Shown here in pieces: positions 8,078-27,101 of a stretch of 64,000 nt of DNA. A program made the position numbers and the translations under genes. Positions within the stretch are counted from its first letter, which is position 1; each line of letters starts with the position of its first letter. The notes beneath the pieces are model-generated. The model was not told the DNA's origin. It was given only the letters and a program-made list of their open reading frames with translations, and made no database searches. Source of the stretch: Oscillospiraceae bacterium (GTDB lineage Bacteria > Bacillota > Clostridia > Oscillospirales > Oscillospiraceae); the NCBI GenBank assembly GCA_017415425.1, contig JAFQGT010000016.1, positions 62,001-126,000 of the forward strand, written 5' to 3'.

Positions 8078-8100
8078 TGGCAGAGGATGAGGGATTCGAA
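8078..8100. repeat. Left attachment-site core of the island (tRNA-Gln 3' fragment)
   Basis: 23 bases identical to 27028-27050: the CCA end, discriminator, acceptor 3' strand and part of the T-arm of tRNA-Gln on the minus strand. The homology stops abruptly on both sides, so this is a duplicated integration core and not a tRNA gene. Confidence 0.9.
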
Positions 8101-11428: not shown

Positions 11429-11457
11429 CTGCGAGCAGATTTATTATTTACTGCTAG

Positions 11458-14400
11458 TTACTTTGCTCTATACTGTACCCACTCTTGCACATTAGAGATA
11501 GTATCAGAAGCGGACACACTTGTGCTGCTTTCTAGATTTTCTATCTTTTGGTACTGGAACATCTTATAATAATCTGTGTAGGTACTTGTATAGTAATCAA
11601 ACCGATAGAAATAACTGCTTCTTGCATTCACGCCTGTGCAATTATACCACAAATATTGACCATGGCCTTGATTCCAGTTGTTATACTCCGCAGCATATGC
11701 CTTAGTGGACTTAAATGCTTGGAAGTATTGATATTTATAATTTGCACACTGTGAACCAACTGCTGCAGCGGATGCATAACCGGATTTATAGTAAATGGCT
11801 CTATTCAAGTATCCTGTTGATGTACCTGTGCTATACATCCAATGCCAATAAACATAGCCTGCCCAACTGTTCGATACTGTACGTTTCGTCGTTTCAGTTT
11901 CTGAATTGGTATATGCCGACTTCATGAACGAAGTGTAAATAGAATTACCTGTATCAAATCCACTGGGGAACGAAGCATAATTGGCAGAACCTGTTCCTGA
12001 TTGTACCCAATAACTTCCCGTCTGTGTATAGCCAGCCAACGAAGTTTCTCTGGATTCTGTTGTTGTAGTCTTGGTATAACTCCATTTGCGATTTAACACT
12101 TGTGCGCCAGCAGGTAAATCAGATGCCTTAACCCAGCCAGAGGTTGCATTTAATGTGGCCGTTGCATAAATATCCGAAGATGTTACATCCTTAGTGACGG
12201 TTACCGAATCAACGCCGCGGCTTGTGATTGTGTAATAATCTGCCTTTGTGTAGGTCACTTGCAAGGTGTCACCATAGTAGATCTTCGCACCACTGCTTAG
12301 AGTTTCGGTGGCAGCACCTGCATTGGGAGAACTGGTACGCTTAACTGTGATGGTGTAACCAGTACCGGTGTTCCAGGATGCGCTATAGGCGTTTACTGTC
12401 CACTGTGCGTACAACGTATGGTTAGCAGCAGCAGTAACCGTTGTAGTATTTTCGACCTTTGTGCCACCGGTAGCGGCTGTGTACCAGCCATTAAAGGTGT
12501 AGCCAGTTCTGGTGGGAACAGGCATATCCCCGTAGGATTCACCGTAAATAACTTCTTTGGATTCAACAGAGGTACTACCACCATTAGCATCGAAAGACAC
12601 GGTAAACTCATTCAGTTTCCACTTTGCATACAAGGTCATATCGCTTGTGACTGGTGTCTCAAAACTGAATGCCGTTGTTAGCTCTTCATCTGTGTACCAC
12701 CCCAGGAAGGAATAGTGTTCTTTTTCGGGGGGCACAGGAGCAGTCAGCTTTGTATCATACCCAATAGCAACCGGGTCTATGGCAGTTCCATCATTTGTAT
12801 CAAACGTTACTGTTACTTTGCCCAGATACTTTACATACTCACCCTCAGTAATTGTTTTTACATTTTCAGGATATTTGAGCATACCTGTATTGGTAATTTC
12901 ACCGCATACAAGGTAGTTGCCGCTAAAGTCCAGCGTTCCAGTTATGCCAGCGTTCGCCTTAGACAGTGTTACATTCTTACTCAGGACGGAATTGCCGCTA
13001 TTAGATGTTAGGATTACATTGCGATACAGCTTCAGGGCTGTATGTTCTGCAGTCAGGCACAGCGCAAGTCCGGGAGCATTTTCAACAGTCACTCTTGCCA
13101 GTGTTACTGTTTCTGAAGAGAAATTCAATGGGATGTCCTTATTCTCCGTGAGCGTTATGTTGCTGATAAATGTTTCCGCAGCATCAGACTTGATCTTAAG
13201 ACCGCTGAAGGTCTTACCACCACCGATCAGTTTAAAATACTCGGTTGCGCTTGTCACTTCCTTGGTGCCGGTGTAATCATCTGTAAGCTTTGTCAGATCA
13301 ACAGTGATTTTCTTTGCACCGGAATTTACAGCAGCATCGGCAACAGCAGCATCATAGGCCATAACTGCAATTTCGTTTACGCCTTCAAATGCGCCTTCCC
13401 CAAGTTCTGTGACCATATTGTCGATCATAAATGCAGAATACTCGGTCTCGCCCTTGCTGTTGACAAATTTACCCAGATTTACACAGTCCTTAAAAGCGCC
13501 TTTCCCGATTTTTGTAACGCCGTAGGCAATGACGGTTTCCAGATTTGTACAACCCTCAAATGCATAGTCGGGAATTTCTGTTACATACATCGGTAAAATG
13601 ACTGTTTTAATTTCTGTATTTCCTCTGAATGCATTGGCATCAAAGCTTGTAACCACAACAGGATCACTGGTGTCATCCAAGTTGTCCACGCCTAAATACT
13701 GAGGAACGACAACATCACCAGTAAAGTCTTCGACAGCCTCAAAACCTCTTACGCAACCATAGCCATCTTCGCCGACCTCGATTTCCAGACCTTCTGTCTG
13801 ACCAGTGACACCGGCAATATATTCGTTTACTTCGTAAGGAATTTCAAAAGTAACGAGGCCGTTTTCACAATCCTTAAAGGAAGGATCCTTCAGAGAATAA
13901 TCCCAGTAAGCGTAAGTATCATCCTCAAGGACGTTGAAGGTATATGTATAATAAGAAGCTGTTGCGATGTCGTAGCCGACAACGCCGTAGACATGCACGA
14001 TACCGGCTTCGACCAGTCTGTGGTTGCCCACATGGTCATCCTTATGAGCCTCGACATGCACATTTTCCTTGGACATATACTCAGAAACTGTCACAGAGTT
14101 GGAGTAACCGGTTTCATCACTGGTCACACCAGAGACGCTCTCAGTATTTTCCTTTGCGCCGTTCAAGGACTTGCTGATGTTGTAGGTAGTGGTGCTTCCG
14201 ATTTCTTTTGCAATTGCTTCAGCGATAGAGGTCTCCTGACTCATCTGCTCGCTCTTTTCATAGCTGTTTGTGGAATTCCAGTTTGTGGAATTGCTTGTTA
14301 CAGCATTGTAGTAGGCAGAGCTGCTGCTTGAAAAATCAGTGCCCACAAAGCTCGAAGAATTTGTATCCACGTGGAAGGCTTCATTATCCTTTCTGCCAGA

Positions 14401-16605
14401 AGAAACCTTCGCGTCAGCAGTTATGGTTGTGGTGTTTTTCACGCCGGCTTCAACCTTTGCAATGCCAACTGGAGCAGAAACACCGGCGCTCACTTCTGTT
14501 TCATTCTTAAAGCCCGTGCTGAGCTCTGCATCGCAATACTTCTCTGTTGACTTGTCGTAGGAAGTATTGATACCGAAGGAATCCTCGGTTGTCACTCTTG
14601 CAGAGTTGGAACTGGTGCTTCCGGATTCCATGCTGGAATAAGAGGAACCGCCTTCGCTATTACTTATGAAGTATGCATTGCCGACCACATTACCCTTGGA
14701 ATCGACTCTTTCCTCCGAATGGACCTGCTTGGTAGAATCTTCTTGACTTTCGCTCATTATGTCATTCCATCCCTCGGACAGCGTCCATCCAGAGCTGCGA
14801 GTGGTAGCATTGGCGACAGTCTTAGCAATGTTCTGAGCATCTTCTCTGGAAAATTCCGTTTTCAGTGTTGTTGTATCCACAAAGTCAACGGTGGTGTTTT
14901 GGTACATAACCTTGTCACCATTCTCACGCTGATATGTATACAACGGAACATTGTCGATTTTTCCGATATTGTAGACAAACAGGAACTGTTTGCGTTCATT
15001 ATCCTCTATGATAATGGGATCGCCGTAATCTGCGTAACTCGTTGCACGGTTACGGTCAGATGTCCAGTTTGCGCGAAGTGTTACATTCTCCGCTGTGCCG
15101 GGCTTAATTTCATTAACAATAAAGCCATCATCATTGGACCAGCCTACAAAGGTATACTTATAGGCGGTGGGATTTGTCAGTGTCAACCCGGTATCGATGG
15201 TGTATTTTGCCTTATTTTTAAGTTCTTCGCCGCCATAGGTCGTATATACATCTACATCCGGTGTGTCGAATGTTACGGTATACACATTCTGCGTCCACTT
15301 AGCATATAGAACCAACTCTTGTGTACTGCCCTTGGGGATAACATCCCATCTTGTGCCGTGTTGGTCTACCCAGCCATCAAAGGTATATCCGGGGGAAGAC
15401 AAGGGCTGGAGGATTACCATCTCACTTTCTTTGTAGGTAGCCGAATTAGGATTTTCGATCACTTGCTTTTGCAAATAAGCATCGCCCTGATCAATGTAAT
15501 CACCAGCTGCCAGGAAGTATGTAATGGTATGCTCCTTGGGCTGAAGCTTTTCGATTACGGTTTGCTCTACCACCCATTCACCGCAAACAGAACACTTAAT
15601 GCCGTCAGTTAGGCCTTCCTTTTCCGTTGTCGCAGCATAGCCAGGAACGGAAACCTCCGTATGGTTATTTGCTACCTTAAGAACAGCATTGCACTTGGTA
15701 CAGGTTTGTGCTTCGGTGCAGGTAGGTTCAGCACCCGGCTGATGTCCCAACGCCTGGACAACAACATCCTCAAACTTGATCTCGGTGGTACCAGCTTCAT
15801 TACTAAAATACTTTCCACACTTGGAACAATTCCAGTAAGCAATGTTGCCATTCTCTGTACAGGTAGCCGCATCCTCAGCAACATAATTTAACGAGTGTAC
15901 GCAATTTTCAAAAAGAGGATATTCCTCTTCTCCGAACAGAATATGATACAGCAAATATACAGCATCGTTACTGTCTGTTTTGCCATTGCCATCTATGTCG
16001 CCACTTTGCTTTATCGGATACTCTTCCTTACCAAACAAAGTGTGATACAGAAGATAAACAGCATCATCACTGTTCTTCTTTTCATTACTATCCATGTCCC
16101 CGCGAATTTCATTTCTGATTTCCACATTGCCCGGGACCACTGTAACCGCTACGGAAACCTCATCACCATTTTCATCCATCGTTTTGAGTATGACTGAGCA
16201 AGAAATACTAACATCAGAATCTATAACAGCACTGTTAATTTTGAATGTCATTTTCAAAACAGGGCCGTTAGCATCCGTGTTTTCTCCAAAGGTCAGAACG
16301 CCACGACCCTGTGAGGAATTCCAGTTCTTGATTTCAGCATCGCACAACCACTCAACATTGATTAATGTCATTTTACTTGCATCATAAGTAATATCAGAAA
16401 TCGCCATGCTTTTGACAACTGGAGCATTATCGAGCGTAGCAACCAATTCCACAGTTTCCCCCGGCAACGCATCTGCTGTCTCAATTACCACTTTGGCCCC
16501 TGTTGCAGCAGCCACTTGAATCGCAGAGATTGGCACCATTGACAGCACCATAACGACCAACAAAAAGACCGCTGTTATCCTTGTTGAAATTTTTCTTAAC
16601 CGCAC
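11458..16605 (-). CDS. Giant secreted multidomain protein: cohesin-like, dockerin, InlB-type repeats, LRR
   Basis: 1715 residues. Approximate order: signal peptide 1-34; cohesin-like beta domain 36-165; duplicated dockerin type I region 170-235 (second copy DIDGNGKTDSNDAVYLLY has a canonical calcium loop, the first is degenerate); Cys-rich GHxPG/CxxC segments 235-360; two InlB/Listeria-Bacteroides-type repeats 370-535 (ending YAKWT, RANWT); a Ser/Thr-rich alternating beta region 540-900; BspA-like leucine-rich repeats 960-1070; two more InlB-type repeats 1265-1400 (YAKWK, YAQWT); a Tyr/Trp/Ser-rich C-terminal domain 1470-1715. There is no LPxTG or other sorting signal. The start is GTG, 8 bases after AGGAGG. 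It lies 22 bp downstream of the collagen-like gene and is probably controlled by the same promoter switch. Likely an adhesin or matrix protein; a toxin-like role for the middle region is possible. Confidence 0.8.
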   Translation of the reverse strand: MRLRKISTRITAVFLLVVMVLSMVPISAIQVAAATGAKVVIETADALPGETVELVATLDNAPVVKSMAISDITYDASKMTLINVEWLCDAEIKNWNSSQGRGVLTFGENTDANGPVLKMTFKINSAVIDSDVSISCSVILKTMDENGDEVSVAVTVVPGNVEIRNEIRGDMDSNEKKNSDDAVYLLYHTLFGKEEYPIKQSGDIDGNGKTDSNDAVYLLYHILFGEEEYPLFENCVHSLNYVAEDAATCTENGNIAYWNCSKCGKYFSNEAGTTEIKFEDVVVQALGHQPGAEPTCTEAQTCTKCNAVLKVANNHTEVSVPGYAATTEKEGLTDGIKCSVCGEWVVEQTVIEKLQPKEHTITYFLAAGDYIDQGDAYLQKQVIENPNSATYKESEMVILQPLSSPGYTFDGWVDQHGTRWDVIPKGSTQELVLYAKWTQNVYTVTFDTPDVDVYTTYGGEELKNKAKYTIDTGLTLTNPTAYKYTFVGWSNDDGFIVNEIKPGTAENVTLRANWTSDRNRATSYADYGDPIIIEDNERKQFLFVYNIGKIDNVPLYTYQRENGDKVMYQNTTVDFVDTTTLKTEFSREDAQNIAKTVANATTRSSGWTLSEGWNDIMSESQEDSTKQVHSEERVDSKGNVVGNAYFISNSEGGSSYSSMESGSTSSNSARVTTEDSFGINTSYDKSTEKYCDAELSTGFKNETEVSAGVSAPVGIAKVEAGVKNTTTITADAKVSSGRKDNEAFHVDTNSSSFVGTDFSSSSSAYYNAVTSNSTNWNSTNSYEKSEQMSQETSIAEAIAKEIGSTTTYNISKSLNGAKENTESVSGVTSDETGYSNSVTVSEYMSKENVHVEAHKDDHVGNHRLVEAGIVHVYGVVGYDIATASYYTYTFNVLEDDTYAYWDYSLKDPSFKDCENGLVTFEIPYEVNEYIAGVTGQTEGLEIEVGEDGYGCVRGFEAVEDFTGDVVVPQYLGVDNLDDTSDPVVVTSFDANAFRGNTEIKTVILPMYVTEIPDYAFEGCTNLETVIAYGVTKIGKGAFKDCVNLGKFVNSKGETEYSAFMIDNMVTELGEGAFEGVNEIAVMAYDAAVADAAVNSGAKKITVDLTKLTDDYTGTKEVTSATEYFKLIGGGKTFSGLKIKSDAAETFISNITLTENKDIPLNFSSETVTLARVTVENAPGLALCLTAEHTALKLYRNVILTSNSGNSVLSKNVTLSKANAGITGTLDFSGNYLVCGEITNTGMLKYPENVKTITEGEYVKYLGKVTVTFDTNDGTAIDPVAIGYDTKLTAPVPPEKEHYSFLGWYTDEELTTAFSFETPVTSDMTLYAKWKLNEFTVSFDANGGSTSVESKEVIYGESYGDMPVPTRTGYTFNGWYTAATGGTKVENTTTVTAAANHTLYAQWTVNAYSASWNTGTGYTITVKRTSSPNAGAATETLSSGAKIYYGDTLQVTYTKADYYTITSRGVDSVTVTKDVTSSDIYATATLNATSGWVKASDLPAGAQVLNRKWSYTKTTTTESRETSLAGYTQTGSYWVQSGTGSANYASFPSGFDTGNSIYTSFMKSAYTNSETETTKRTVSNSWAGYVYWHWMYSTGTSTGYLNRAIYYKSGYASAAAVGSQCANYKYQYFQAFKSTKAYAAEYNNWNQGHGQYLWYNCTGVNARSSYFYRFDYYTSTYTDYYKMFQYQKIENLESSTSVSASDTISNVQEWVQYRAK

Positions 16606-16627
16606 AATGAGTTCCTCCTTTACATGA

Positions 16628-19600
16628 TTAGCTTACTGTTACCTGTACTATCACTGATTGACAAGGAAGGGAAATTTCATCTCCATTTTCGTCAAAATAT
16701 TTCAAAATCATCTCGATTTCCATTGTATATGTTCCGGATGCAACTGCGTCCGCCACAGTAAATTGGAACGTAAAAATATCTCCATCCACTACGCCTTGCT
16801 CTACCAAGGTCGATGCGCCCTGAAGTCTTGTCTTGTTAAAATTCTGCAAGTCATATTCATAGTCAGAAGACCAAGTACCCTTCTTAATGATTATACCCGC
16901 CGGAACATTGGAAATTGAAATACCCATCGTTTTTATAGGGGTAGAACAGTTAAGTAATTTCACTGGAATCGATAATGTTGCATTTTTCTCAACCGTCTGA
17001 TTTGAGGTGCTTAAATACGCACCGGTTATCTGTGTATACTGTGCAGTTACTGTCAAATCAGTAGTTACATTGCTGAATGTCTTATCCCAGCCGGCGAAGA
17101 CATAACCATCTCTGGTAGGATCAGCAGGAACTGTGGCAGATTTGCCGGATTCTACGGTCTGAGTCTTCAACACTGCACCGTCCCAATCTTTGAATGTTAC
17201 AGTATAAGTAGTGGGAGTAACGGGATCGTTGCCAAGGAGACCGCTCAGGTCATGGGTCTCAGTAGTACCGTCGGTGTAGTAAATGATCCAGTTCGTTCCC
17301 GAAATCTCAGTTCTGAGGATGCCGCGACCAGCATCGCCTTTTGCACCAGTTGCGCCCTGGGGACCTTGTGCACCGGTATCGCCTTTATCACCCTTTTCGC
17401 CCTTTATGCAGCCAAGGATAGTTGCAGTACCATTTTCACCATATTTTACAGACAGATTGCCATCTGTATCCAGGGACAGGTACGGTGTCAAACCATCTGC
17501 TCCGGTATCACCTTTTTCGCCCTTTTCACCTTGGGCACCTGTCGCACCAGTTGCACCGGTATCGCCCTTTTCACCCTTTTCTCCGCGGATGGGACCCAGT
17601 GTTGTGCTGCTGCCGTCAGTCATCGTAATAACCAACTTGAAGTCTGTCGTCAAAGTGACGCTTTGGATGCCATTACCAGTTGCACCGGTTGCACCAGTTT
17701 CGCCCTTGTCTCCCTTGTCGCCTTTATCGCCCTTTTCGCCTACAATTGATTGCTCCAAAACGATAGGCTCACCTTCGCTCAAGGTGATTACCAAGTAATT
17801 GTCTTCGTTGACGCTAACACCGGTAACACCTACGCCAGCATCACCCTTGTCACCCTTGGCTCCGGTTGCACCGGTATCACCCTTGTCGCCCCTTTCACCA
17901 ATCGCCTTCACGCCGGTGGTGACCCAGGTATTACCCTCATCAACGGAAATTTCCCACTCATTTGTAGTCGAATTGATGCGGATCTGCGGTGTGATACCGT
18001 CTTCACCCTTTTCGCCCTGAGCACCGGTGACACCAGCATCGCCTTTGTCACCCTTTTCACCTTGGATGCCCTGTGCACCTGTGGCACCGGTATCGCCCTT
18101 GTCACCCTTGGCTCCGGTTGCCTTTACACCGGTAGTTGTCCAGGTTGCACCATTATCCGTGGAAATTTCCCACTCGTTTGTGCTTGCATTGATGCGAATT
18201 TGGGGTGAAATACCATCCTTGCCTGTGCCGCCCTGTGCACTGCCACCGATAACATTTTCAAAAGTAAACACCTTATTGTTAGTCAGCGTAATGGTCATTG
18301 TGCCATTGCTGATCTTGATATTCTGAATACCAACGCCCTGTTCGCCCTGAGCGCCTGTGGCACCGGTATCGCCCTTGTCACCCTTTTCGCCTTGGATGCC
18401 CTGTGCACCGGTATCACCTTTATCGCCCTTAGCGCCGGCAGAACCCTTTAAGGACTCCAGCCATTCAACTTCCGTAGCTGCTGTGGTCAAACCATTCTTA
18501 ATTGCCAGCTCATAGGCCGACAATCCGTTCTGTCCGGCTGTGCCGGTTGCACCAGCATCACCCTTCTCACCGGTCGCTTTTACGCCGGTAGTAGTCCAGG
18601 TACTGCCTTCGTCAACAGAGATTTCCCACTCGTTAGTCATTGAATTGATTCGAACCTGAGGTGCAATACCGTTTTCACCCTTGTCACCCTTTTGACCTTG
18701 GGCACCGGTAGCACCGGTATCACCCTTGTCGCCCTTTTCACCAGTCGCCATTATGCCGGCAGAAGTCCAGGTGTTACCCTCGTCAACAGAAATTTCCCAT
18801 TCGTTTGTGCTTGCGTTGATGCGAACCTGAGGCGTGATACCGTCTTCACCCTTGTCGCCCTTTTGGCCTTGGGCACCGGTTGCACCAGTGTCACCTTTTT
18901 CGCCCTTCAGGCTTTCAATCCACTCAGTCTCTGTTGCAGCTGTAGTCAAACCGGCAAACTTTGCGATCTCATAGGCAGACTTACCGTTTAAGCCATTCTG
19001 TCCAGCTGCGCCCGTCTCTCCCTTTTCTCCCTTGAGAGATTCCAGCCACTCCTGCTCAGACAAAGTTACTCCATTTGCCTGGGCAATCTCGTATGCAGAC
19101 AAACCGACAGCGCCAGTTGCACCGGTATCACCCTTGTCGCCCTTTTGCCCTTGAACGCCAGTGGCACCAGTATCACCTTTTTCACCCTTCAGGCTCTCGA
19201 TCCACTCTGCTTCTGTGGCAGCCGTGGTCTTTCCAAGCATCACTGCGATTTCATAAGCAGACAGCCCGTCCTCGCCCTTGGGTCCGGCAACGCCTGCTGT
19301 TCCAACCACCTTGCCCACATTGACGCTCTGGTTGTTGGAGAACACCAAAATCAGTTCGCCGGCATTATTGATGTCTACATTGGTGATGCTAACACCATCT
19401 TTACCGTTAGCACCGTCCTTACCATTCGCTCCGTCTTTACCGTTGGCACCATCCTTGCCGTCTGCGCCATCCTTACCGTTCACACCGTTAATGCCTTGCG
19501 CCTTGCCGATGTTCACAGTAGTATCGTCAGACAGTGTTAATACCAACTCTCCCTTTTCATTAAAAGAAGCAGTCTTTACACTGACAGAAGCACTATTGCT

Positions 19601-19909
19601 CAAGGATGCCAATGCGCTGTTCCACTCGGCTTCTGTACCTTTATATCCGTTTTCAACTGCAATCTCATAGGCAGACTTGCCGGACAGAGATTCCAGCCAT
19701 TCCTGCAGTGTCCCCTCGTAGCCGTTTTCCACTGCAAGTTCGTAAGCAGACAGCCCATTTTCGACCTTCTGCATCTGTGCGTCCGTCTTGGCATCATGGA
19801 CAGTAAGCGCAACAATGGTTGCAATACCTGCCATTAAAATGATTGTCAGAACAACACATAGCGTTTTTAACAACGCTGTCTTTCCTCTTGTGGTTTCTTT
19901 GTTTACCAT
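16628..19909 (-). CDS. Membrane-anchored collagen-like protein with C-terminal cohesin-like domain
   Basis: 1093 residues. A single N-terminal hydrophobic helix (about 13-37) acts as a signal anchor. Then come units of the type GLSAYELAVENG..GTLQEWLESL alternating with long Gly-X-Y collagen repeats rich in GEKGDTGATG and spacers containing ITPQVRINASTNEWEIS, to about residue 925. An InlB-like repeat (about 930-990) is followed by a cohesin-like beta domain at the C-terminus that ends with YFDENGDEISLP, similar to KTMDENGDEVSV in the giant downstream protein. It probably forms a triple-helical stalk that displays the C-terminal domain away from the cell. The ATG at 19909 follows AGGAGG. First gene of the operon. 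Confidence 0.85.
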   Translation of the reverse strand: MVNKETTRGKTALLKTLCVVLTIILMAGIATIVALTVHDAKTDAQMQKVENGLSAYELAVENGYEGTLQEWLESLSGKSAYEIAVENGYKGTEAEWNSALASLSNSASVSVKTASFNEKGELVLTLSDDTTVNIGKAQGINGVNGKDGADGKDGANGKDGANGKDGANGKDGVSITNVDINNAGELILVFSNNQSVNVGKVVGTAGVAGPKGEDGLSAYEIAVMLGKTTAATEAEWIESLKGEKGDTGATGVQGQKGDKGDTGATGAVGLSAYEIAQANGVTLSEQEWLESLKGEKGETGAAGQNGLNGKSAYEIAKFAGLTTAATETEWIESLKGEKGDTGATGAQGQKGDKGEDGITPQVRINASTNEWEISVDEGNTWTSAGIMATGEKGDKGDTGATGAQGQKGDKGENGIAPQVRINSMTNEWEISVDEGSTWTTTGVKATGEKGDAGATGTAGQNGLSAYELAIKNGLTTAATEVEWLESLKGSAGAKGDKGDTGAQGIQGEKGDKGDTGATGAQGEQGVGIQNIKISNGTMTITLTNNKVFTFENVIGGSAQGGTGKDGISPQIRINASTNEWEISTDNGATWTTTGVKATGAKGDKGDTGATGAQGIQGEKGDKGDAGVTGAQGEKGEDGITPQIRINSTTNEWEISVDEGNTWVTTGVKAIGERGDKGDTGATGAKGDKGDAGVGVTGVSVNEDNYLVITLSEGEPIVLEQSIVGEKGDKGDKGDKGETGATGATGNGIQSVTLTTDFKLVITMTDGSSTTLGPIRGEKGEKGDTGATGATGAQGEKGEKGDTGADGLTPYLSLDTDGNLSVKYGENGTATILGCIKGEKGDKGDTGAQGPQGATGAKGDAGRGILRTEISGTNWIIYYTDGTTETHDLSGLLGNDPVTPTTYTVTFKDWDGAVLKTQTVESGKSATVPADPTRDGYVFAGWDKTFSNVTTDLTVTAQYTQITGAYLSTSNQTVEKNATLSIPVKLLNCSTPIKTMGISISNVPAGIIIKKGTWSSDYEYDLQNFNKTRLQGASTLVEQGVVDGDIFTFQFTVADAVASGTYTMEIEMILKYFDENGDEISLPCQSVIVQVTVS

Positions 19910-19949
19910 TTTCCTACCTCCTGGGTGCTTTTCGCAGGCTTGCCGTACA

Positions 19950-19967
19950 ACATAATCAGAATTATGT
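19950..19967 (+). repeat. Inverted repeat, proximal copy (IR-L)
   Basis: ACATAATCAGAATTATGT; its exact reverse complement is at 20213-20230. It lies 41 bp upstream of the collagen-like start codon. Confidence 0.9.
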
Positions 19968-20029
19968 ATATTTCCAGAATCGGATAAACAGACCAAACTG
20001 GTTACTATATCCATTTTTGGGCATAGAAA

Positions 20030-20072
20030 TGTACACCCTCACTTGTTTTTTGCAAAAACAGTCAGCGAGGGT
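20030..20072. repeat. Long hairpin inside invertible segment
   Basis: ACACCCTC and GAGGGTGT flank an inner imperfect stem with a TTTTTTGCAAAAA centre. No clear T run follows on either strand. In both orientations it lies between the recombinase gene and the promoter-to-operon path, so it could insulate the operon from read-through. Confidence 0.6.
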
Positions 20073-20135
20073 GTGTTTGTGCTGTCAATAATTTTCTTGT
20101 TTCAATATTTTTTGCGTTTCTTGCGTATGTACTAC

Positions 20136-20164
20136 TTGATTTTTGCCGTTTGCAGATATATAAT
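20136..20164 (+). promoter_or_regulatory. Switch promoter, presently reading rightward
   Basis: TTGATT (20136-20141), exactly 17 bases, perfect TATAAT (20159-20164). In this orientation it transcribes away from the surface-protein operon and into the 3' end of the recombinase gene on its antisense strand. I found no equally good leftward promoter in the segment. Confidence 0.75.
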
Positions 20165-20212
20165 TATCCTGTATTTATGTACATATTTTGCCTTTTCGGG
20201 GCTTGCCGCACC

Positions 20213-20230
20213 ACATAATTCTGATTATGT
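20213..20230 (-). repeat. Inverted repeat, distal copy (IR-R)
   Basis: ACATAATTCTGATTATGT, the exact reverse complement of 19950-19967. It ends 15 bp from the recombinase stop codon. Confidence 0.9.
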
Positions 20231-20245
20231 GGTTTTTCTTTTGGT

Positions 20246-21076
20246 CTACACTACCAATCCCAGGCGTTCAATCTTGCGACGATGCTCAATACCAGTGGTC
20301 ATAATATAGATCCGAGTGGTGTTGATGGAACTGTGACCCAGGATGTCGGCCAGCTTGGCAATATCCTTTTCGATTCCGTAGAAAGTGCGGGCAAAAAGCT
20401 TCCGCAGATTATGGGGGAACACCTTGCTTGGCTTTACACTGGCAGTCTCGCACAGTTTCTTCATAGCGGACCAAATATTACTACGGTTCAAAGGTTTGCC
20501 GGTACGAGTAACGAATATCGTGCCGGTGATAATACCGTGCCGCTTGGCGTAATTCAATAAAATACTTTTCAGCTTGCCCGGAACGAGGATCGTCCGGGTT
20601 TTGTTTTTACAATCGACCGTGACTTCGCCACACTGGATTGCCTCCACCGTGAAGTATCGCAACTCTGAAACACGAATTCCTGTACCACATATGGTTTGAA
20701 TCACCAAGTTTAACTGCTCGTTTTTCTTGGACGCATCCAGCAAACGCATATACTCCGCCTTGGTCAGCTCTTTGTCCTCGGTGCAGTAGGTCTGCTGTTG
20801 CATCCGAATGTTCTTCGACTTACAGTTGGATAACCCCAAAAAGTCCAGCAGGCTGTTCACACTGGCAAGCATAGAATTAATAGAGCGAACCGCAAAACCT
20901 CGCTCCACCAAATGTCTTTTCCAAGCAACAACTAATTCCTTTGTAATTTCGTTATCGTCTGCATAAACGCAGAACACTCGCACATCTCGCAGATATTTCT
21001 CCTGTGTCGCTGCACTCTTCTCCTCCCGATAAAGATAATTTGCAAATTCCTGAATTTCCTTATTTGATAGTTTCAT
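20246..21076 (-). CDS. Tyrosine recombinase, candidate promoter invertase
   Basis: 276 residues with an N-terminal SAM-like core-binding domain (about 1-85) and a C-terminal catalytic domain. The catalytic set is visible: Arg in GTGIRVSELRYF, HNLRKLFARTF (H-x-x-R), LGHSSINTTRIYI (the conserved His and the Tyr nucleophile). The short length without arm-binding domain resembles XerC/D-like recombinases that drive phase variation in Firmicutes. An AAGGAGG site precedes the ATG at 21076. Its 3' end lies next to the 18-bp inverted repeat. That it inverts the segment is inferred from position and type. Confidence 0.85.
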   Translation of the reverse strand: MKLSNKEIQEFANYLYREEKSAATQEKYLRDVRVFCVYADDNEITKELVVAWKRHLVERGFAVRSINSMLASVNSLLDFLGLSNCKSKNIRMQQQTYCTEDKELTKAEYMRLLDASKKNEQLNLVIQTICGTGIRVSELRYFTVEAIQCGEVTVDCKNKTRTILVPGKLKSILLNYAKRHGIITGTIFVTRTGKPLNRSNIWSAMKKLCETASVKPSKVFPHNLRKLFARTFYGIEKDIAKLADILGHSSINTTRIYIMTTGIEHRRKIERLGLVV

Positions 21077-21087
21077 AATGCTTCCTC

Positions 21088-21123
21088 CTTGATTTTGATA
21101 GTAATATTGTACCCAAAATCAAG
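21088..21123. promoter_or_regulatory. Inverted repeat over recombinase promoter
   Basis: CTTGATTTTG (21088-21097) and CAAAATCAAG (21114-21123) with a 16-base spacer holding TACAAT on the minus strand as a possible -10. The proximal arm adjoins the ribosome site of the recombinase. A candidate operator for the neighbouring XRE regulators or for the recombinase itself. Confidence 0.6.
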
Positions 21124-21144
21124 CAGCAATGGAAAAACGCAAAA

Positions 21145-21176
21145 TCCGCATGCCTGCCCTCACGCAAGTATGCGGA
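21145..21176. terminator. Weak hairpin in divergent gap
   Basis: TCCGCAT/ATGCGGA 7-bp stem with a long loop and T-rich sequence on both outer sides. It may separate the recombinase from the regulator genes. Confidence 0.4.
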
Positions 21177-21303
21177 CATATTTTTATATTCACCACCTCA
21201 TATGCTTGCTTTTTTCGTAGTAATTATACGATAAGAATTATTAAAATGCAACGATTTGTTGCAGTATAATTTACGAAGAATACAAGTAAAAGGGGTGCAT
21301 ATT

Positions 21304-21609
21304 GTGAAGGACATTCTTTCAACTATCGCCAAATACCGCGAAGATAGAGGTTGGACTGAGTATCAGCTGGCTGAGCGTTCCGGTCTGCCCCAGTCTACTA
21401 TCTCCTCCTGGTATCGCAAAAACATGGTTCCTACCATCCCCTCATTGGAAAAGATCTGCACAGCTTTTGGGATCACTTTGTCGCAGCTATTCACGGAAGA
21501 CGATGAGGCTGTTTCTCTTACCGCTTCCCAAAAGAAGCTTCTGGAATGTTGGTCCAGACTTAGTGAGGAGCAGCAAAACGCTGTGTTCTTGCTAATAGAA
21601 AAAATGTGA
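21304..21609 (+). CDS. XRE family transcriptional regulator
   Basis: 101 residues. A Cro/C1-type helix-turn-helix spans residues ~5-60 (YQLAERSGLPQSTISSWYRK) and a short acidic tail follows. GTG at 21304 is chosen because AAAGGGG lies 8 bases upstream; the frame is open to 21256 but without a start signal. A TATAAT at 21265-21270 may be its -10 box. It diverges from the recombinase and could control it. Confidence 0.82.
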   Translation: MKDILSTIAKYREDRGWTEYQLAERSGLPQSTISSWYRKNMVPTIPSLEKICTAFGITLSQLFTEDDEAVSLTASQKKLLECWSRLSEEQQNAVFLLIEKM

Positions 21610-21648
21610 TCCTATAGAAACTAACCGAGAACTTAATATCAATTGACG

Positions 21649-21682
21649 AAAAGGTGTCACATCATGTGTGACACCTTTTTTG
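21649..21682 (+). terminator. Terminator of first XRE gene
   Basis: 13-bp stem AAAAGGTGTCACA / TGTGACACCTTTT, 5-base loop, T run. Confidence 0.92.
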
Positions 21683-21815
21683 TATGCAAAACGCTATTCC
21701 CGTGAAGTTTTCTTGAAACTCAAATATGACCTCTCACATATTATTAATAAATCAGTCGAAAAAAGGCTTTTGGCCTGGATTTGAGCTGAAATTTTAATGT
21801 ATGAGAGGTTTTTAT

Positions 21816-22046
21816 ATGAAAAACGCGACCAATTACGAAGAAACAAGAAAAAATTTGGAGGACAATATTAACCGCATTTTGAATGAGAAAGATCGGTCAG
21901 CGCGGTGGTTGAGTCTTAAAATTGAGAAAAACGCATGGTACATAACCCGTATACTGAACGGAAAGATTGATCCGTCCTTGCAGGTGATTTGTAAAATTGC
22001 AACAGTTCTGCGTGTGTCGGTAGCAGATCTTTTTACGGAAAAATAG
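21816..22046 (+). CDS. Small XRE family regulator
   Basis: 76 residues, essentially one Cro/C1-type helix-turn-helix domain (WLSLKIEKNAWYITRILNGK, then ICKIATVLRVSVADLF). ATG 21816 follows AGAGG; an upstream ATG at 21801 contains that ribosome site in its coding part and is less likely. Resembles phage- or island-type repressors. It may act on the inverted repeats at 22381-22394 or 21088-21123, which is a guess. Confidence 0.8.
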   Translation: MKNATNYEETRKNLEDNINRILNEKDRSARWLSLKIEKNAWYITRILNGKIDPSLQVICKIATVLRVSVADLFTEK

Positions 22047-22055
22047 GGTTAAAAA

Positions 22056-22080
22056 AGTTATGGGACCTGTCAGGTCCCAC
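22056..22080 (+). terminator. Hairpin after small XRE gene
   Basis: TGGGACCT / AGGTCCCA stem with a 3-base loop just after the stop codon and an A-rich left flank; only a few T follow. Confidence 0.6.
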
Positions 22081-22094
22081 TTTGCCAAAACCTA

Positions 22095-22124
22095 TTGCAA
22101 TGTACGAAATGACTGTGCTATACT
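22095..22124 (+). promoter_or_regulatory. Promoter for 53-residue ORF
   Basis: TTGCAA (22095-22100), 18-base spacer, TATACT (22119-22124). Confidence 0.65.
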
Positions 22125-22162
22125 GACTACACCAAACTTTTATTTACGAAGGAGGAATTAAA

Positions 22163-22324
22163 ATGACAAACGAAAAGTGCCGTTCCAAAAGAAGGTGTTT
22201 GCCTTCCTTGTTGCAAGGATTAAGCCCCCTTGTAATGATCGCAGAGTATGGAAAACCAACGAAGAAATATTCTGCTGACGAAAAACTTTCCTGCAGTGAA
22301 AGCAACGAGGAAACGCGTAGATAG
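22163..22324 (+). CDS. Small basic ORF of the island
   Basis: 53 residues, starting MTNEKCRSKRRCLPSLLQ and ending in charged residues. Family not recognised. It has a promoter, a strong AAGGAGG site and a terminator immediately after, so it may well be translated. Its leader from TTTACGAAGGAGGAATT is duplicated 270 bp downstream before an 11-codon ORF. Confidence 0.5.
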   Translation: MTNEKCRSKRRCLPSLLQGLSPLVMIAEYGKPTKKYSADEKLSCSESNEETRR

Positions 22325-22355
22325 CACTCATCCGGGGACGGATGGGTGCTTTTTC
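22323..22355 (+). terminator. Terminator of 53-residue ORF
   Basis: Stem AGCACTCATCCG paired with CGGATGGGTGCT (one wobble), 4-base loop, then TTTTT. Confidence 0.88.
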
Positions 22356-22380
22356 GTTTGTTGTCTGCTTAGTTTTTGTT

Positions 22381-22394
22381 ACCTCAACTGAGGT
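22381..22394. repeat. Short dyad, possible operator
   Basis: ACCTCA-AC-TGAGGT upstream of the second leader; typical size for a small repressor site. Confidence 0.4.
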
Positions 22395-22431
22395 TCAAAA
22401 TATATTTTATATTTACGAAGGAGGAATTTAA

Positions 22432-22467
22432 ATGAAAAACTATGAAAACAGGAAATGTGAAGGGTAA
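22432..22467 (+). CDS. 11-residue leader-like ORF
   Basis: MKNYENRKCEG with an AAGGAGG site in a leader copied from that of the 53-residue ORF. It ends at the left arm of a GGGTAATCA/TGATTACCC hairpin (22462-22500). It may be a translated leader feeding the structured region downstream. Confidence 0.35.
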   Translation: MKNYENRKCEG

Positions 22468-23060
22468 TCAAAGATTGAAGCATTGAGCAAATGATTACCC
22501 GGTGTTTTGACCAAGGTGAGGATGCCGACAGTCAAAACAAAAACAATGTGAGCCAAAACTGTTTGGTTCACAGGCGCGATTCGTATGCGAGGCAAAGTGT
22601 GCCGGAAACCATACGAGAGACAGCTGTGCCCCGGACGGCTGAATGCGAAAAAGGGGCGGCGGACAGGGCTGATTACAGATCACGGTGATCTGACTGTCAA
22701 CTGACAGCCGATGCTCTAAGGCTGCAGTAACTTCTGTACCCAAAAGGAATTTTGGTACAGAGGAAAAAGAGCTCCGGAATCGGTGGACGGAAAAGTTGCT
22801 GACGAAAATGCATTTCCACCGACGGCAAGGGTATCTGCCGAAGCTCGTGACGAAAATGAATGAGATGCCCACGACGTTTGAGAGTTCCGTCGTTAAATAA
22901 AATTGCTCAGACGGCAGCGCGACCGTCCCCCTTTTGTGGGAATTTCGCGAAGCGAATTGTTTCCGGGATTTAATCGCTACACTACAGAATGAAAATCCCC
23001 GCTGATCAGGTCTATCGTACCTGAACCGGATCACCGGCACTCGGCGCAGCGTCAGCAAAG
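22468..23060. other. Hairpin-rich noncoding stretch, possible structured RNA
   Basis: No plausible protein. Many compact stem-loops follow one another, for example TGTGAGCCAAA with TTTGGTTCACA (22549-22574), CAGATCAC-GGT-GATCTG (22675-22691) and TCTGTACC…GGTACAGA (22734-22762), plus two copies of TGACGAAAATG. It follows a leader ORF in the same direction. I cannot assign it to a known RNA class. Confidence 0.45.
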
Positions 23061-23192
23061 GACTCTATGTTAGTGTCTTTTGCACCTCTTGGATGCAAGA
23101 GGATACGCTCGGCAAGTCGGAGATGATGATCCTTTCAAAATCTCTGATGAAGCCAAGTACTAACCTCTGTTCCCAATCGAATATCGCACCCC

Positions 23193-23864
23193 AAACTCTC
23201 TTTTCGATATGACAAATGACTATCCCTTCGAAATGAATATGACCTTCCTTTCGAAATGAGGATTTGCACCTGCGTGATAAAGCCATTCGGCTCTCTGCAA
23301 GTTGTCATTCGCCTTGGTGAATGACAAGCTGCAGGAAGCCGAATACGACAAGCACAGACTTCCAGTCGCAGGTGCCAGAGCTATCGTTTCGATATGATAT
23401 ATGACTGTCTTTTCGAAATGATTTATGACTCTCATTTCGAGAGCCGAGCCGTTTCTATCGGACGGTAGTCAGATAGAAACGGCTCGGAGACAAGGTCGGA
23501 GAGCCGTGATTAGCAGGGCATAATTCCCCGCGTCAAAATAGAATCAGTAAGAAACGAGAGTAGATGTCCCCCTTTTGACAGTGGGTGAATTATGCCCTGC
23601 GGACTATCATTTCGATATGATATATGACTATCCTTTCGAAATGACATATGACTGTCTCTTCGAGATGACATATAACTTTCTCTTCGAAATGACATATCCA
23701 CTATCGTTTCGAAAGTCTTATAGATTAATCATAGGTTAATCTCAGATAATCCTTTCTCTACCAACTGTCCCTTAAAGATGACTATATGGAGATTGACTGT
23801 CCTTTTGAAAGAATCTATGACTATCGTTTCGAAATGATATTTCGAAAGCTAACTATCATTTGGC
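23193..23864. repeat. Degenerate 24-bp repeat array interrupted by long hairpins
   Basis: About fourteen units of consensus TGACTATCNTTTCGAAATGA plus YATA, centred on the palindrome TTTCGAAA. Groups lie at 23193-23262, 23376-23441, 23601-23718 and 23790-23864. The groups are separated by large inverted repeats: 23266-23375 (GCACCTGCG/CGCAGGTGC ends), 23444-23487 (16-bp stem CCGAGCCGTTTCTATC) and 23513-23600 (14-bp stem GCAGGGCATAATTC). Units touch without spacers, so this is not a CRISPR array. It lies directly upstream of a tyrosine recombinase gene. Confidence 0.85.
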
Positions 23865-24020
23865 ACGCTCTTGGCGTGCGAGGGTTCTTGCCGATTGAAT
23901 TCCTGACCAGATTCGATCGGCAAGAACCGCGACAAAAATTTTCGTACGCAAAACCGTTTTCGTCAGCGAGGAACTCTAAAATTTTCGTGACGAAAATGAC
24001 CCCTAAGATCTCAATTTTCG
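23863..24020. repeat. Further hairpins and TTTTCGTGACGAAAA dyads
   Basis: Stem-loops GCACGC/GCGTGC (23863-23879) and GGTTCTTGCCGAT/ATCGGCAAGAACC (23883-23938). Then several ATTTTCG motifs, including a perfect dyad ATTTTCGTGACGAAAAT near 23983-23999. CGTGACGAAAATG also occurs near 22849. Confidence 0.7.
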
Positions 24021-24096
24021 TTCAGAGATTTTTTCGCAGTGGAGGTCCCTACGCTGCGTGAAAATAAAAAAATACAAATGAAAGGAGGGGTTGCTT

Positions 24097-25125
24097 ATGA
24101 GTCACAAGCGCCCCAACCCCGCAAGGGTCTACGCACCGCCCGGTGCAAACACTACAATTCCGGAGAATCTTCCCCCTCCCGGGGTAATCAATCCGGGACT
24201 GGTCAAGAATCTACTGGAACAGGTCACGTCGATCTACAAGCACAGTAATGAGAAGAGTTTCAAGACCAGAGTTCGGTACTATGAAGCAGCAAAAAGATTC
24301 TGCTGTTTCTTAGCCGCCCGTTTTCGTCTTGAGAAATTCAAGAATGTGGACGACAGACATTTTCGTGCCTATGCAGAGCATCTGAAGAAGATCGGTGCAT
24401 CGCCCGCAACCATCCAGGCAGAGCTGGCAGGCATACGGTTTTTCTACAGATTGTCCGGTGGCAAGAACAAGCTGTCTGAAAACAGAAGTCTGAATCTTCC
24501 AAAGAGAGCTGTGGGTACGGAGAATCGTGCCTGGCTCCCCGAGGAAAAGGAGAAAGCAGTTGCCATTGCTACGAGAATGGGCAGAACTGATGTTGTGATT
24601 GCGATTGATCTGGCTTATGAGTTAGGCTTAAGAGTGGAAGAAATCTGCGTCACAAGGGTTGAGTATTTGATATCCGCGAGGAATACCGGCATTTTCGTTG
24701 TTCCCAAAGGCAAAGGAGGTCAGAGACGTGCCATCAAGTTAAATCCGATGCAAAGAGCAATGATCTCCAAGTATGTGGACTACGCCAAGGCCATGGGCTT
24801 ACAGCCCGGTGATTATCTGATCTCGGACAGCGAAAAGCACGGTGTGAAGATGGAGATCAAATCTCTGCAGAATTGGATGAGCCACAACAGAGAGAAGTTT
24901 ATGGTCAAGGATCGTGACAAGATCGTAGAAGCAGATAAGAAGAAAAGACACGCCACCATCTCCTGGCACGGACTTCGCCACAGCTACGCACAGAAGACCT
25001 ATGCAGAGGCATTGAAAGTGAAACCCAAGCAAGCGGAAAAGATCGTTAGCGAGAATCTCGGGCATCATCGATGCAAGGTAACGAGGATTTATCTGGCCGA
25101 GGTAAAGGTCAAGAAGTCCAAGTAA
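24097..25125 (+). CDS. Tyrosine recombinase/integrase
   Basis: 342 residues. An N-terminal core-binding domain (about 45-135) precedes a catalytic domain with Arg in YELGLRVEEIC, HGLRHSYAQ (H-x-x-R), LGHHRCKVTRIYL (conserved His, Tyr nucleophile). A Lys-rich insertion lies before HGLRH. The ATG at 24097 is preceded by AAAGGAGGGG. It lies just downstream of the 24-bp repeat and hairpin region, which may hold its recombination sites. It differs clearly from the island integrase and from the putative invertase. Confidence 0.87.
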   Translation: MSHKRPNPARVYAPPGANTTIPENLPPPGVINPGLVKNLLEQVTSIYKHSNEKSFKTRVRYYEAAKRFCCFLAARFRLEKFKNVDDRHFRAYAEHLKKIGASPATIQAELAGIRFFYRLSGGKNKLSENRSLNLPKRAVGTENRAWLPEEKEKAVAIATRMGRTDVVIAIDLAYELGLRVEEICVTRVEYLISARNTGIFVVPKGKGGQRRAIKLNPMQRAMISKYVDYAKAMGLQPGDYLISDSEKHGVKMEIKSLQNWMSHNREKFMVKDRDKIVEADKKKRHATISWHGLRHSYAQKTYAEALKVKPKQAEKIVSENLGHHRCKVTRIYLAEVKVKKSK

Positions 25126-25276
25126 CACACCCCATTTTTTGTTTTTTTATAGTTAAGAAGGAGTTTTTCAAAATGAAAATAACATCCCCTGATATGCGGG
25201 ACTGATATATAAGGAAATACCAGGGACCAATGAAACAAGGGCGGTGGCACCCGTCACCGCCCGTAAGGAGAAAATT
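25126..25276. other. Gap before xis with leader-type signals
   Basis: T-rich stretch, an AAGGAG site before a 10-codon frame (25174-25206), and a GGGCGGTG/CACCGCCC hairpin (25239-25263). No longer gene. Confidence 0.4.
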
Positions 25277-25330
25277 ATGATGAATTTGAACTTGCCCGCC
25301 TCCGGCAGAAACGGAGGCAACGAAATTTAG
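25277..25330 (+). CDS. 17-residue small ORF
   Basis: MMNLNLPASGRNGGNEI, with AAGGAG at good distance. The stop overlaps the AGGAGG site of the next small ORF, suggesting translational coupling toward xis. Confidence 0.35.
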   Translation: MMNLNLPASGRNGGNEI

Positions 25331-25343
25331 GAGGTAACTATCT

Positions 25344-25424
25344 ATGACGGATAGAATCGTATCAATCATTTATGAAGCCGCAGAGACTGCCTCCTTGCTG
25401 TTGCATACGGCGAGGAGGATGTAG
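25344..25424 (+). CDS. 26-residue leader ORF coupled to xis
   Basis: MTDRIVSIIYEAAETASLLL and six more residues. TAGGAGG lies upstream. Its stop codon ends one base before the xis ATG, and the xis ribosome site lies within it, so translation of xis is probably coupled. Confidence 0.45.
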   Translation: MTDRIVSIIYEAAETASLLLHTARRM

Positions 25425-25425
25425 T

Positions 25426-25614
25426 ATGACCCTACAAGAGAAACTGCAAAAATATCCCCCGGTCCTTTCTGTGAAAGACCTGGAGGACATCCTGCGAATC
25501 AGCCATAACACGGCATATGCCTTAGTGCGCTCCGGACAGATCCACAGTGTTCGCACAGGTCGAAGCTACCGAATACCCATAAATGCAGTAGTTGACTACA
25601 TGAAAAAGAACTAA
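25426..25614 (+). CDS. Excisionase-like helix-turn-helix protein
   Basis: 62 residues of the MerR-like/HTH_17 excisionase class (LSVKDLEDILRISHNTAYAL, then GRSYRIPINAVVDYM). Such proteins bend DNA near the attachment site and favour excision. The ATG follows AGGAGG. It lies 75 bp upstream of the integrase in the same direction. Confidence 0.85.
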   Translation: MTLQEKLQKYPPVLSVKDLEDILRISHNTAYALVRSGQIHSVRTGRSYRIPINAVVDYMKKN

Positions 25615-25619
25615 TTTCA

Positions 25620-25648
25620 TTGCGGATTTGCCGCATTCATGGTATAAT
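25620..25648 (+). promoter_or_regulatory. Promoter for integrase
   Basis: TTGCGG (25620-25625), 17 bases, TATAAT (25643-25648). A TGCGG/CCGCA dyad overlaps the -35 side. Confidence 0.65.
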
Positions 25649-25689
25649 ATTGGTGTACCTGCTATGCGGCAACGAAAGGAGTAATATTT

Positions 25690-26910
25690 ATGCCGCAAAG
25701 CAAAAACAAGAAAAATAATAAAGCAGCTTCCGGGATGGGAACCATCCGCAAGAAGACCGTCTGCAAAGGCGGCAAGCAGTACGAATACTGGGAAGCCAGA
25801 TACACCGTCGGCTTTGATCCCGGCACCGGAAAGCAGGTTCAAAAATCTGTCAGCGGTAAGACACAGAAAGAGGTTGCGCAGAAGCTGAAGGAACTGACTG
25901 CCGCTCTGGATGCAGGCACCTACATCGCACCGAGCAAGGTGACGGTTGGACAATGGCTGGATGTTTGGCAGGAGGATTATCTGGTCAATGTGAGGCCTTC
26001 CACTGTCACATCCTACGAAGCCACCATCCGCAATCACATCAAACCGAGGATCGGCGCGATTCGTTTGGAGGCTCTGACCACCCAAGACATTCAGAATTTC
26101 TACAACAGTCTGCGGTCACCCTCGGAGAATCGGAAAGCACTGTCTGCTAAGACCATCAAGAACATCCACGGAATTCTCCATCATGCGTTGCAGCAGGCCA
26201 TGCTCAACAATTACATTCGTGCCAACCCCTCGAATTCCTGTGTCATTCCCAGGGCAACCAAGAAGAAAGTCAAACCGCTGAATGAGTATCAGATTGCAGA
26301 CTTCCTGAAGGCGATCAAAGGACACAAGTACGAGAATATATTTTTGGTTGCCCTGTTCACCGGAATCCGGCAAGGCGAGGTCTGTGGCCTGCAATGGGAG
26401 TGTGTGGACTTTGATGATGGCACGATCCTTATTGACAAACAGCTGCAGAGCCTGCGTGCCACGACCCGGGGTGACAGTGAAAAGTATACCTTAGTTCCCA
26501 CCAAGAATGGCAAGGAGAGAACGATCACTGCCGCGCCCTATGTGATAGAACTGCTCTGGAAAACAAAGCAAAGCCAAAATGCCAACAGAAAACTCTGGGG
26601 CAACGCATTCCAGGAAAATGATCTGGTCTTTACCGATGATCTCGGCAACAGGATTACGCCCCAGGCACTATACCGGGCGTTCAAAATCATTGTGACAGAA
26701 TCGGGAATGCCTATGGTTCGTTTTCATGATCTTCGCCACTCTTATGCCGTTATTTCTCTGAAATCCGGTGATGATGTAAAGACTGTCCAGGAAAATTTAG
26801 GCCATGCAACCGCTGCTTTTACCTTGGATGTGTACGGTCATGTGACGGAAAAGATGAAAAAAGACAGTGCAAACCGTATGGAAGCATTTATAAAGTCCGT
26901 GAGCCAATAA
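25690..26910 (+). CDS. int: Island integrase (Tn916-type tyrosine recombinase)
   Basis: 406 residues in three domains: N-terminal arm-binding domain with a YWEARYTVGFDPGTGK beta motif (about 30-65), core-binding SAM-like domain (about 80-180), catalytic domain. The catalytic residues are visible: Arg in FTGIRQGEVCGL, HDLRHSYA, LGHATAAFTLDVYGHV. An AAAGGAG site precedes the ATG. It reads toward the tRNA-Gln 3' end 120 bp away; its stop codon overlaps the right arm-type repeats. Expected to integrate and excise the island at the 23-bp core. Confidence 0.93.
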   Translation: MPQSKNKKNNKAASGMGTIRKKTVCKGGKQYEYWEARYTVGFDPGTGKQVQKSVSGKTQKEVAQKLKELTAALDAGTYIAPSKVTVGQWLDVWQEDYLVNVRPSTVTSYEATIRNHIKPRIGAIRLEALTTQDIQNFYNSLRSPSENRKALSAKTIKNIHGILHHALQQAMLNNYIRANPSNSCVIPRATKKKVKPLNEYQIADFLKAIKGHKYENIFLVALFTGIRQGEVCGLQWECVDFDDGTILIDKQLQSLRATTRGDSEKYTLVPTKNGKERTITAAPYVIELLWKTKQSQNANRKLWGNAFQENDLVFTDDLGNRITPQALYRAFKIIVTESGMPMVRFHDLRHSYAVISLKSGDDVKTVQENLGHATAAFTLDVYGHVTEKMKKDSANRMEAFIKSVSQ

Positions 26911-26929
26911 GGGAAAACGTAAGGGAAAA
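26908..26929 (+). repeat. Right integrase arm-type site pair
   Basis: TAAGGGAAAA twice with 2 bases between (26908-26917, 26920-26929), the same arrangement as at 8217-8238. Confidence 0.75.
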
Positions 26930-26978
26930 TAAAAATTCGCCCTTGAAAATCTGAACATTTCAAGTCTTAAAAGCAGCA

Positions 26979-27018
26979 AAAAGCAAAAAGAAACCCCAGA
27001 ATTCCGAAGAATTCTGGG
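26979..27018 (-). terminator. Terminator of tRNA-Gln supplied by the island
   Basis: On the minus strand, CCCAGAATTC-TTCG-GAATTCTGGG (27018-26995) followed by T-rich sequence, 9 bases beyond the tRNA CCA end. It belongs to the island because it lies inside the right core repeat. Confidence 0.82.
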
Positions 27019-27027
27019 TGATTTCAA

Positions 27028-27101
27028 TGGCAGAGGATGAGGGATTCGAACCCCCGCAAACGGAGTCAGAGTCCGGTGTGCTACCGTTACACTAATCCTC
27101 T
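27028..27101 (-). tRNA. tRNA-Gln (anticodon CUG)
   Basis: 74 bases with encoded CCA. The acceptor stem AGAGGAT/ATCCTCT is perfect. D-arm GTG…CAC; anticodon loop CTCTGAC reads CAG; T-loop TTCGAAT is standard. The last 23 bases are the right core of the integrated island. Confidence 0.93.

Follow-up and report, generated by a model that had tools for sequence, protein, structure and literature searches.

The window analysed here, the whole stretch of 64,000 nucleotides taken from an Oscillospiraceae bacterium whose genome is available as a 1.73-Mb draft assembly in 41 contigs, contains an operon of two genes for predicted surface proteins, the gene of a tyrosine recombinase and, between them, a short segment enclosed by two inverted sites (Table 1). 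The operon had originally been predicted to encode a collagen-like protein paired with a cohesin-dockerin partner, a description whose collagen-like half stands, whereas the other half comes down to weak matches. The second protein matched cohesin and dockerin entries among PDB sequences with E values of 0.0026 and 0.0012, and a Pfam scan at E ≤ 0.001 found no cohesin or dockerin domain in the operon proteins. The C-terminus of the collagen-like protein resembles the cohesin-like part of the second protein (31% over 113 aa) and gave no cohesin or dockerin match against the PDB. The operon, the segment and the recombinase gene all lie within an island of 18.97 kb (8078-27050) delimited by 23-bp direct repeats, with an integrase gene beside the tRNA, which bears out the proposal that the switch rides on a tRNA island. 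Other island genes encode a Fic-domain protein (8310-9383), a calcineurin-like phosphoesterase (9840-10541), integrase-like proteins (24091-25125 and 25690-26910) and small HTH regulators (21256-21609 and 21801-22046). An Rfam scan gave little or nothing beyond the tRNA.

Table 1. Features of the switch, its operon and the surrounding island, with positions in the window.
Feature	Position	Strand	Remarks
Left attachment copy	8078..8100	+	Matches the tRNA-Gln 3′ end exactly over 23 bp
1715-aa predicted surface protein, second operon gene	11458..16605	-	LRR_5 and List-Bact repeats; weak cohesin-like/dockerin-like N-terminus
Collagen-like predicted surface protein, first operon gene	16628..19909	-	1093 aa from ATG at 19909; longest open frame starts at 20014
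AGGAGG ribosome-binding site of the collagen gene	19917..19922	-	Outside the segment; read from the sequence
Distal recombination site (predicted)	19950..19967	.	ACATAAT-CAGA-ATTATGT on +; arms and matching centre conserved in relatives
Predicted invertible segment	19968..20212	.	245 bp between the sites; parts reversed in G016 (locus L149) and G041 (locus L167)
Hairpin, predicted bidirectional terminator / insulator	20033..20074	.	Five T within the 10 nt beyond each exit; z -3.9 and -4.5
Predicted sigma-70-type promoter, TTGATT-N17-TATAAT	20136..20164	+	Consensus match; strand scores compared
Proximal site and its T tract, resembling a terminator for the OFF-state transcript	20210..20243	+	Function inferred
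Proximal recombination site (predicted)	20213..20230	.	ACATAAT-TCTG-ATTATGT on +; inverted copy of the distal site
Xer-like tyrosine recombinase, predicted invertase of the switch	20246..21076	-	276 aa, open frame
Integrase gene adjoining the tRNA, probable island integrase	25690..26910	+	Domain match
tRNA-Gln, island integration target	27028..27101	-	Right attachment copy 27028-27050

The two 18-bp sites are exact inverted copies of each other with 245 nt between them, so that the whole switch, sites included, spans 281 bp. Each consists of palindromic 7-bp arms (ACATAAT/ATTATGT) around a non-palindromic centre, CAGA in one copy and TCTG in the other, as had been reported from the first reading of the sequence. 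Allowing up to two mismatches, the window has no such sites beyond the pair, where 0.17 would be expected, and at least two sites turned up in only 2 of 100 shuffled sequences; the rest of the assembly holds five others (a control pattern has three sites there), each with two mismatches. The flanks of the two sites also repeat directly (19926-19967 and 20189-20230), the inner flank of the proximal site being identical to the outer flank of the distal one at 17 of 24 nt (5e-5 by shuffling), and with the segment flipped this repeat would form a long palindrome in the leader of the collagen gene, with a predicted fold of -40 kcal/mol. This repeat, noticed post hoc and unique to the window among the 85 loci whose orientation could be called (at a threshold of at least 9/12), is best regarded as a curiosity.

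At a distance of 15 bp from the nearer, proximal site lies the stop codon of the recombinase gene, which is intact, in agreement with the original prediction of a short XerC/D-like gene at that spacing. The protein belongs to the tyrosine recombinase family PF00589, with both the catalytic domain and the residue set present: R135, K159, H222, R225, H248 and Y257 are invariant across 20 aligned recombinase sequences, and we take this R..K..HxxR..H..Y series to be of the catalytic type. By sequence, the solved structures and curated models closest to it are those of XerC, XerD and XerA, and it scores far below the curated cut-offs of the NCBIfam equivalogs for these three proteins (best 127.9, against 220).

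The promoter-like sequence inside the segment was confirmed together with its direction: it aims toward the 3′ end of the recombinase gene and away from the collagen gene, an orientation that we call OFF. Modelled inversion yields a leader of 99 nt to the collagen start, assuming that transcription begins 7 nt past the -10 element, close to the roughly 100 bases anticipated. The layout suggests a mode of action in which the adjacent recombinase, acting on the two sites of the window, would flip the 245-bp segment between them. When ON, the promoter would transcribe the operon through the distal site, giving a leader of about 100 nt, and the hairpin, then placed behind the promoter, would stop transcription running on from the recombinase gene. 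When OFF, as in this assembly, the promoter would fire toward the 3′ end of the recombinase gene and the transcript would be stopped at the proximal site and its T tract, which would keep it from running antisense into the recombinase; the hairpin would then sit between the recombinase and the silent operon. That the segment flips in this strain, and that expression changes with it, is what we infer from the sequence.

The switch had also been described as locked in the OFF state. In the sequence we found no feature capable of locking it, and OFF is simply the state recorded in one draft assembly. It might be argued from this single recorded state that the switch once worked and is now fixed OFF in the lineage, but a draft assembly gives a single state even where the molecules are mixed, and the recombinase gene is open and conserved, the sites are identical and the promoter is near consensus, all of which make such a fixation quite unlikely.

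To place the locus among its relatives, homologues of the recombinase were sought in 101 congeneric genomes (the own genome included), in named genomes, in 399 genomes of the family and in viral contigs, taking 80 of at least 590 loci from the named genomes and at most 30 loci from the family set, and further congener loci were added by a DNA search of 136 genomes. After removal of duplicates, for which the final 150 nt of the recombinase gene were the criterion (a rule under which near-identical pairs such as L182/L183 remain), there were 143 unique loci, of which 21 with less than 350 nt downstream were dropped, leaving 122 assessable loci, the window included. An inverted pair scoring at least 16/18 lies just 3′ of the recombinase in 109 of these 122 loci, while 13 are without a pair at that cut-off. 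Its start lies at most about 90 nt beyond the stop codon of the recombinase gene (median 16 nt), with a median centre-to-centre distance of 262 bp between its sites. Controls gave 0/122 in shuffled sequences and 0/108 in upstream regions, with a best control score of 15/18; here, as for the centre and hairpin counts below, the shuffles were simple base shuffles. The conservation of the repeats wherever the recombinase is conserved had been named beforehand as a point on which the idea could fail, and the repeats are retained in the proportion just given. Contigs end less than 350 nt past the recombinase in 21 of 143 loci, as against 6 of 143 on the upstream side, an excess that would fit assembly breaks at a flipping segment; several of these ends belong to contigs from the viral collection that stop right at the recombinase stop (L199, L201, L202 and L213), for which trimming may be another cause.

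Further evidence comes from the centres of the sites. Pairs picked by similarity could favour matching centres, and for this reason a second search was done with the arms alone, ignoring the centre. It found two sites in 102 of the 122 loci, and their centre tetramers match in the inverted sense in all 102 and in the direct sense in none, even though 61 distinct tetramers occur; shuffled partners matched in a mean of 2.5 cases and a maximum of 9. In the similarity-selected pairs, the two copies differ at 41 arm cells as against one centre cell. A centre that is identical within a locus and variable between loci is the expected mark of strand exchange by tyrosine recombinases. It could be thought that the pair represents terminators, or palindromes bound by a regulator, around an intergenic region where no inversion takes place, since each site is itself palindromic and the proximal one, taken together with its T tract, is scored as a terminator. 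Terminators, however, have no need of matching 4-base loops, and centres that are matched yet variable are hard to obtain from them, which favours strand exchange. The same data bear on the idea of a small mobile element or cassette, with the two sites as its ends, which would be excised or integrated rather than inverted. The recombinase does have integrases among its family relatives, and the direct repeat of the flanks (17 of 24 positions) would suit an element of that kind, but excision needs centres matching in the direct sense, which none of the 102 loci have. Moreover, the assembly holds no second paired copy, and two sites stay beside the recombinase in 102 of 122 loci, so this alternative appears very improbable.

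A set of 60 more distant loci, drawn from 18 genomes and searched for the arms, comprises 44 loci with two sites, seven with the proximal site only and nine with none. The centres match in 41 of the 44 two-site loci and are unequal in L232, L259 and L290. These distant members often have other arms, such as ACAAAAT/ATTTTGT, and arms like ACAAAAT and ACAGAAT mostly stay paired within a locus; in three of the genomes (G357, G425 and G378; loci L231-L247) there are five or six copies of the recombinase per genome. The thought that copies within one genome avoid each other's centre, as if each had a private address, found no sign in 18 multi-copy genomes: 50 of 57 within-genome pairs differ and seven share a centre (12%), compared with 33 shared of 1218 between genomes (2.7%). 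Some of the shared within-genome centres look like recent duplicates. In L012 and L151 the inverted repeats are nested and doubled, with two site copies per end forming one 65-nt perfect inverted repeat in all, and perhaps two crossover pairs are possible there.

A switch of this type should be met in both orientations, and the comparison among related genomes recommended by the original prediction found both. Promoters were scored with the -10 element ending 30-65 nt from the near site, and with this call the 109 loci with a pair divide into 26 where the promoter points toward the downstream gene (ON), 59 where it points away (OFF) and 24 unclear cases. Unrestricted promoter scoring gave 61 away, 27 toward and 21 unclear, with one contradiction between the two methods. 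The scores of the two strands differ by at least 2 in 45 of 109 segments, against 3 of 109 after shuffling. An internal hairpin is present in 50 of 109 segments (3 of 109 shuffled), and by the unrestricted promoter calls all 15 ON loci have it in the half next to the recombinase, whereas 26 of 30 OFF loci have it in the half next to the operon; as a marker it is not fully independent of the promoter, which it cannot overlap. Since the half holding the hairpin follows the ON or OFF call, promoter and hairpin swap ends together. On a FastTree tree of the recombinase, the 84 labelled loci require 24 changes of state, close to the upper end of the values from shuffled labels (mean 21.9, range 16-25), which is what a state passed on for only a short time would produce. 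A GCCCAAA motif tried as another marker of orientation agreed with the promoter call in 14 cases and disagreed in 6, and was dropped. At least 5 T in 10 nt follow the proximal site in 43 of 109 loci and the distal site in 18 of 109, so a terminator role of the proximal site is a mere tendency across the family.

The most direct comparison is offered by a congener, G016, whose locus L149 carries the same type of cargo. Relative to the window, the 5′ part of its collagen gene aligns on the plus strand (76%) and so does its recombinase (71%), whereas the promoter and the proximal-site DNA between these collinear flanks align on the minus strand (73%), that is, reversed. Part of the segment of L167 in G041 is also reversed with respect to the window. 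This locus is in the ON orientation; its recombinase match is short (residues 220-276, in an open frame of 184 aa), and this copy may no longer flip by itself. Among loci with collagen-type cargo beside the switch, L149 and L063 are ON, whereas L156, L078 and L177, like the window, are OFF, and a relative of the second gene is found in four of these five loci, the exception being L177, where the locus is cut. A contig from the viral collection, L291, has a collagen operon with the same CAGA site and, by eye, a TTGAAC-N17-TAAAAT promoter directed toward the operon, thus ON; no recombinase was found on this locus, whose end falls within the segment. The second protein has relatives in 12 of 136 genomes of the genus, the own genome included, some of them on contigs other than that of the switch (G016, G105 and G057).

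A segment reversed between conserved flanks in G016, and a promoter and a hairpin that change ends together, are again not what static terminators or regulator-binding palindromes would produce, and we consider that explanation most improbable. Taken with the 102 matching centres and the two orientations observed between species, the reversal upholds the proposal of an invertible promoter worked by the adjacent recombinase: very probably, the locus is a self-contained promoter-inversion switch, where the predicted flip of the 245-bp segment by the recombinase turns the collagen-like operon on and off.

The genes that follow the switch in other loci are of many kinds. A simple script was used to call the first proteins downstream of the switches, and 95 of these were scanned (that of the window and 94 of 105 others, the 11 proteins below 110 aa being left out), all except the window's cut to 500 aa. 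Their Pfam matches include signal peptidase S26 (10), DUF4379 (6), ResIII (6), SPFH (5), LRR_5 (4) and collagen (4), and with such a mixture the switch is therefore not tied to one type of gene. The signal peptidase, the commonest first gene with 10 of 95 (L051, L052, L153, L157 and L176 among them), appears SipW-like by eye, and downstream proteins of L088, L097 and L165 are presumably TasA-like, as judged by eye. A helicase-like gene with an HPTGTGKS motif, again read by eye, comes directly after the switch in L152, L083, L086, L094, L101 and L193, and with this kind of cargo some defence-like function might be phase-variable.

Homologues of the recombinase at E ≤ 1e-60 are present in 133 of 399 sampled genomes of the family (own included), with at least six in several of them. 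Named carriers with the pair include Holdemania sp. Marseille-P2844 (L044), Hespellia stercorisuis DSM 15480 (L051) and Collinsella tanakaei ET10 (L057), a distribution that suggests transfer between classes and phyla. Records labelled as plasmids from Subdoligranulum variabile, Monoglobus pectinilyticus and Pusillibacter faecalis MM59 also hold relatives with 47-49% identity. Of the four records read, three have two sites with these arms after the recombinase, one of these three having three sites, and in the stretch from Pusillibacter an inverted pair with different arms can be made out by eye. In the plasmid and phage collections every match stayed below 60% identity, and a two-site gapped pattern searched in viral contigs gave little or nothing. 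The switch of the window is one member of a very common family with many cargoes.

Switches of comparable design have been described before. The fim switch of Escherichia coli is characterized by short repeats and control by two enzymes. It differs from the switch of the window, which has one Xer-like recombinase, in its sites and hosts as well as in its enzymes, FimB and FimE. A tyrosine integrase inverts its 314-bp fimS segment, by which an operon for a surface structure is connected or disconnected, as reported in PMC9993118. Closer in its host are the RecV switches of Clostridioides difficile (cwpV and flagellar), which like that of the window occur in Clostridia, depend on a tyrosine recombinase and concern short segments near surface or motility genes (PMC5903667). 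RecV, however, acts on several sites, and according to the same source a single site in C. difficile R20291 has a recombinase nearby, whereas that of the window is linked to its switch. XerC, XerD and XerA act at one dif site, in contrast to the inverted pairs of this family with their median spacing of 262 bp.

The nearest precedent is inverton group 139 of the hCom2 gut community, which comprises 33 invertons, 32 of them from Clostridia, and is linked to a tyrosine recombinase, invertase group 35 (PMC11892184). The authors called its repeat motifs novel and reported shifts of orientation over culture passages (PMC11892184). Two examples of the group span 257 and 255 bp (PMC11892184), compared with 281 bp in the window. 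Judging from size, host class and enzyme type, the family of the window is probably the same as group 139 and invertase group 35. The hairpin, the rule of the centres and the collagen cargo, all features of the window family, go unmentioned in the passages of that paper on the group (PMC11892184). Among the open-licence papers listed by our searches, we found no collagen-like or dockerin cargo with an invertible promoter, nor the family-wide rules for centre and hairpin, and a search for the arm sequence gave little or nothing. The suggestion that the system was undescribed can thus be kept in part: the collagen/cohesin-dockerin cargo may well be new, but the type of switch is known and a group of such invertons from Clostridia is already in print (PMC11892184).

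We lean, with some reserve, towards a broader reading, in which a one-gene flip cassette (recombinase, site, insulated promoter, site) is widespread in gut Clostridia and beyond and would make any adjoining operon phase-variable, be it for signal peptidases, helicases or SPFH proteins. The crossover tetramer that each locus has of its own would serve as the address tying its two sites together, and here the cassette, riding on a tRNA-Gln island, would make a collagen/cohesin-dockerin surface fibre all-or-none. The family allows phase variation to be studied by comparison in gut-derived Clostridia, which are mostly known from draft genomes, and its layout predicts the switched operons and their state straight from an assembly. 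If the interpretation is true, a very large collagen-like surface assembly would be made by only part of the population of this organism.
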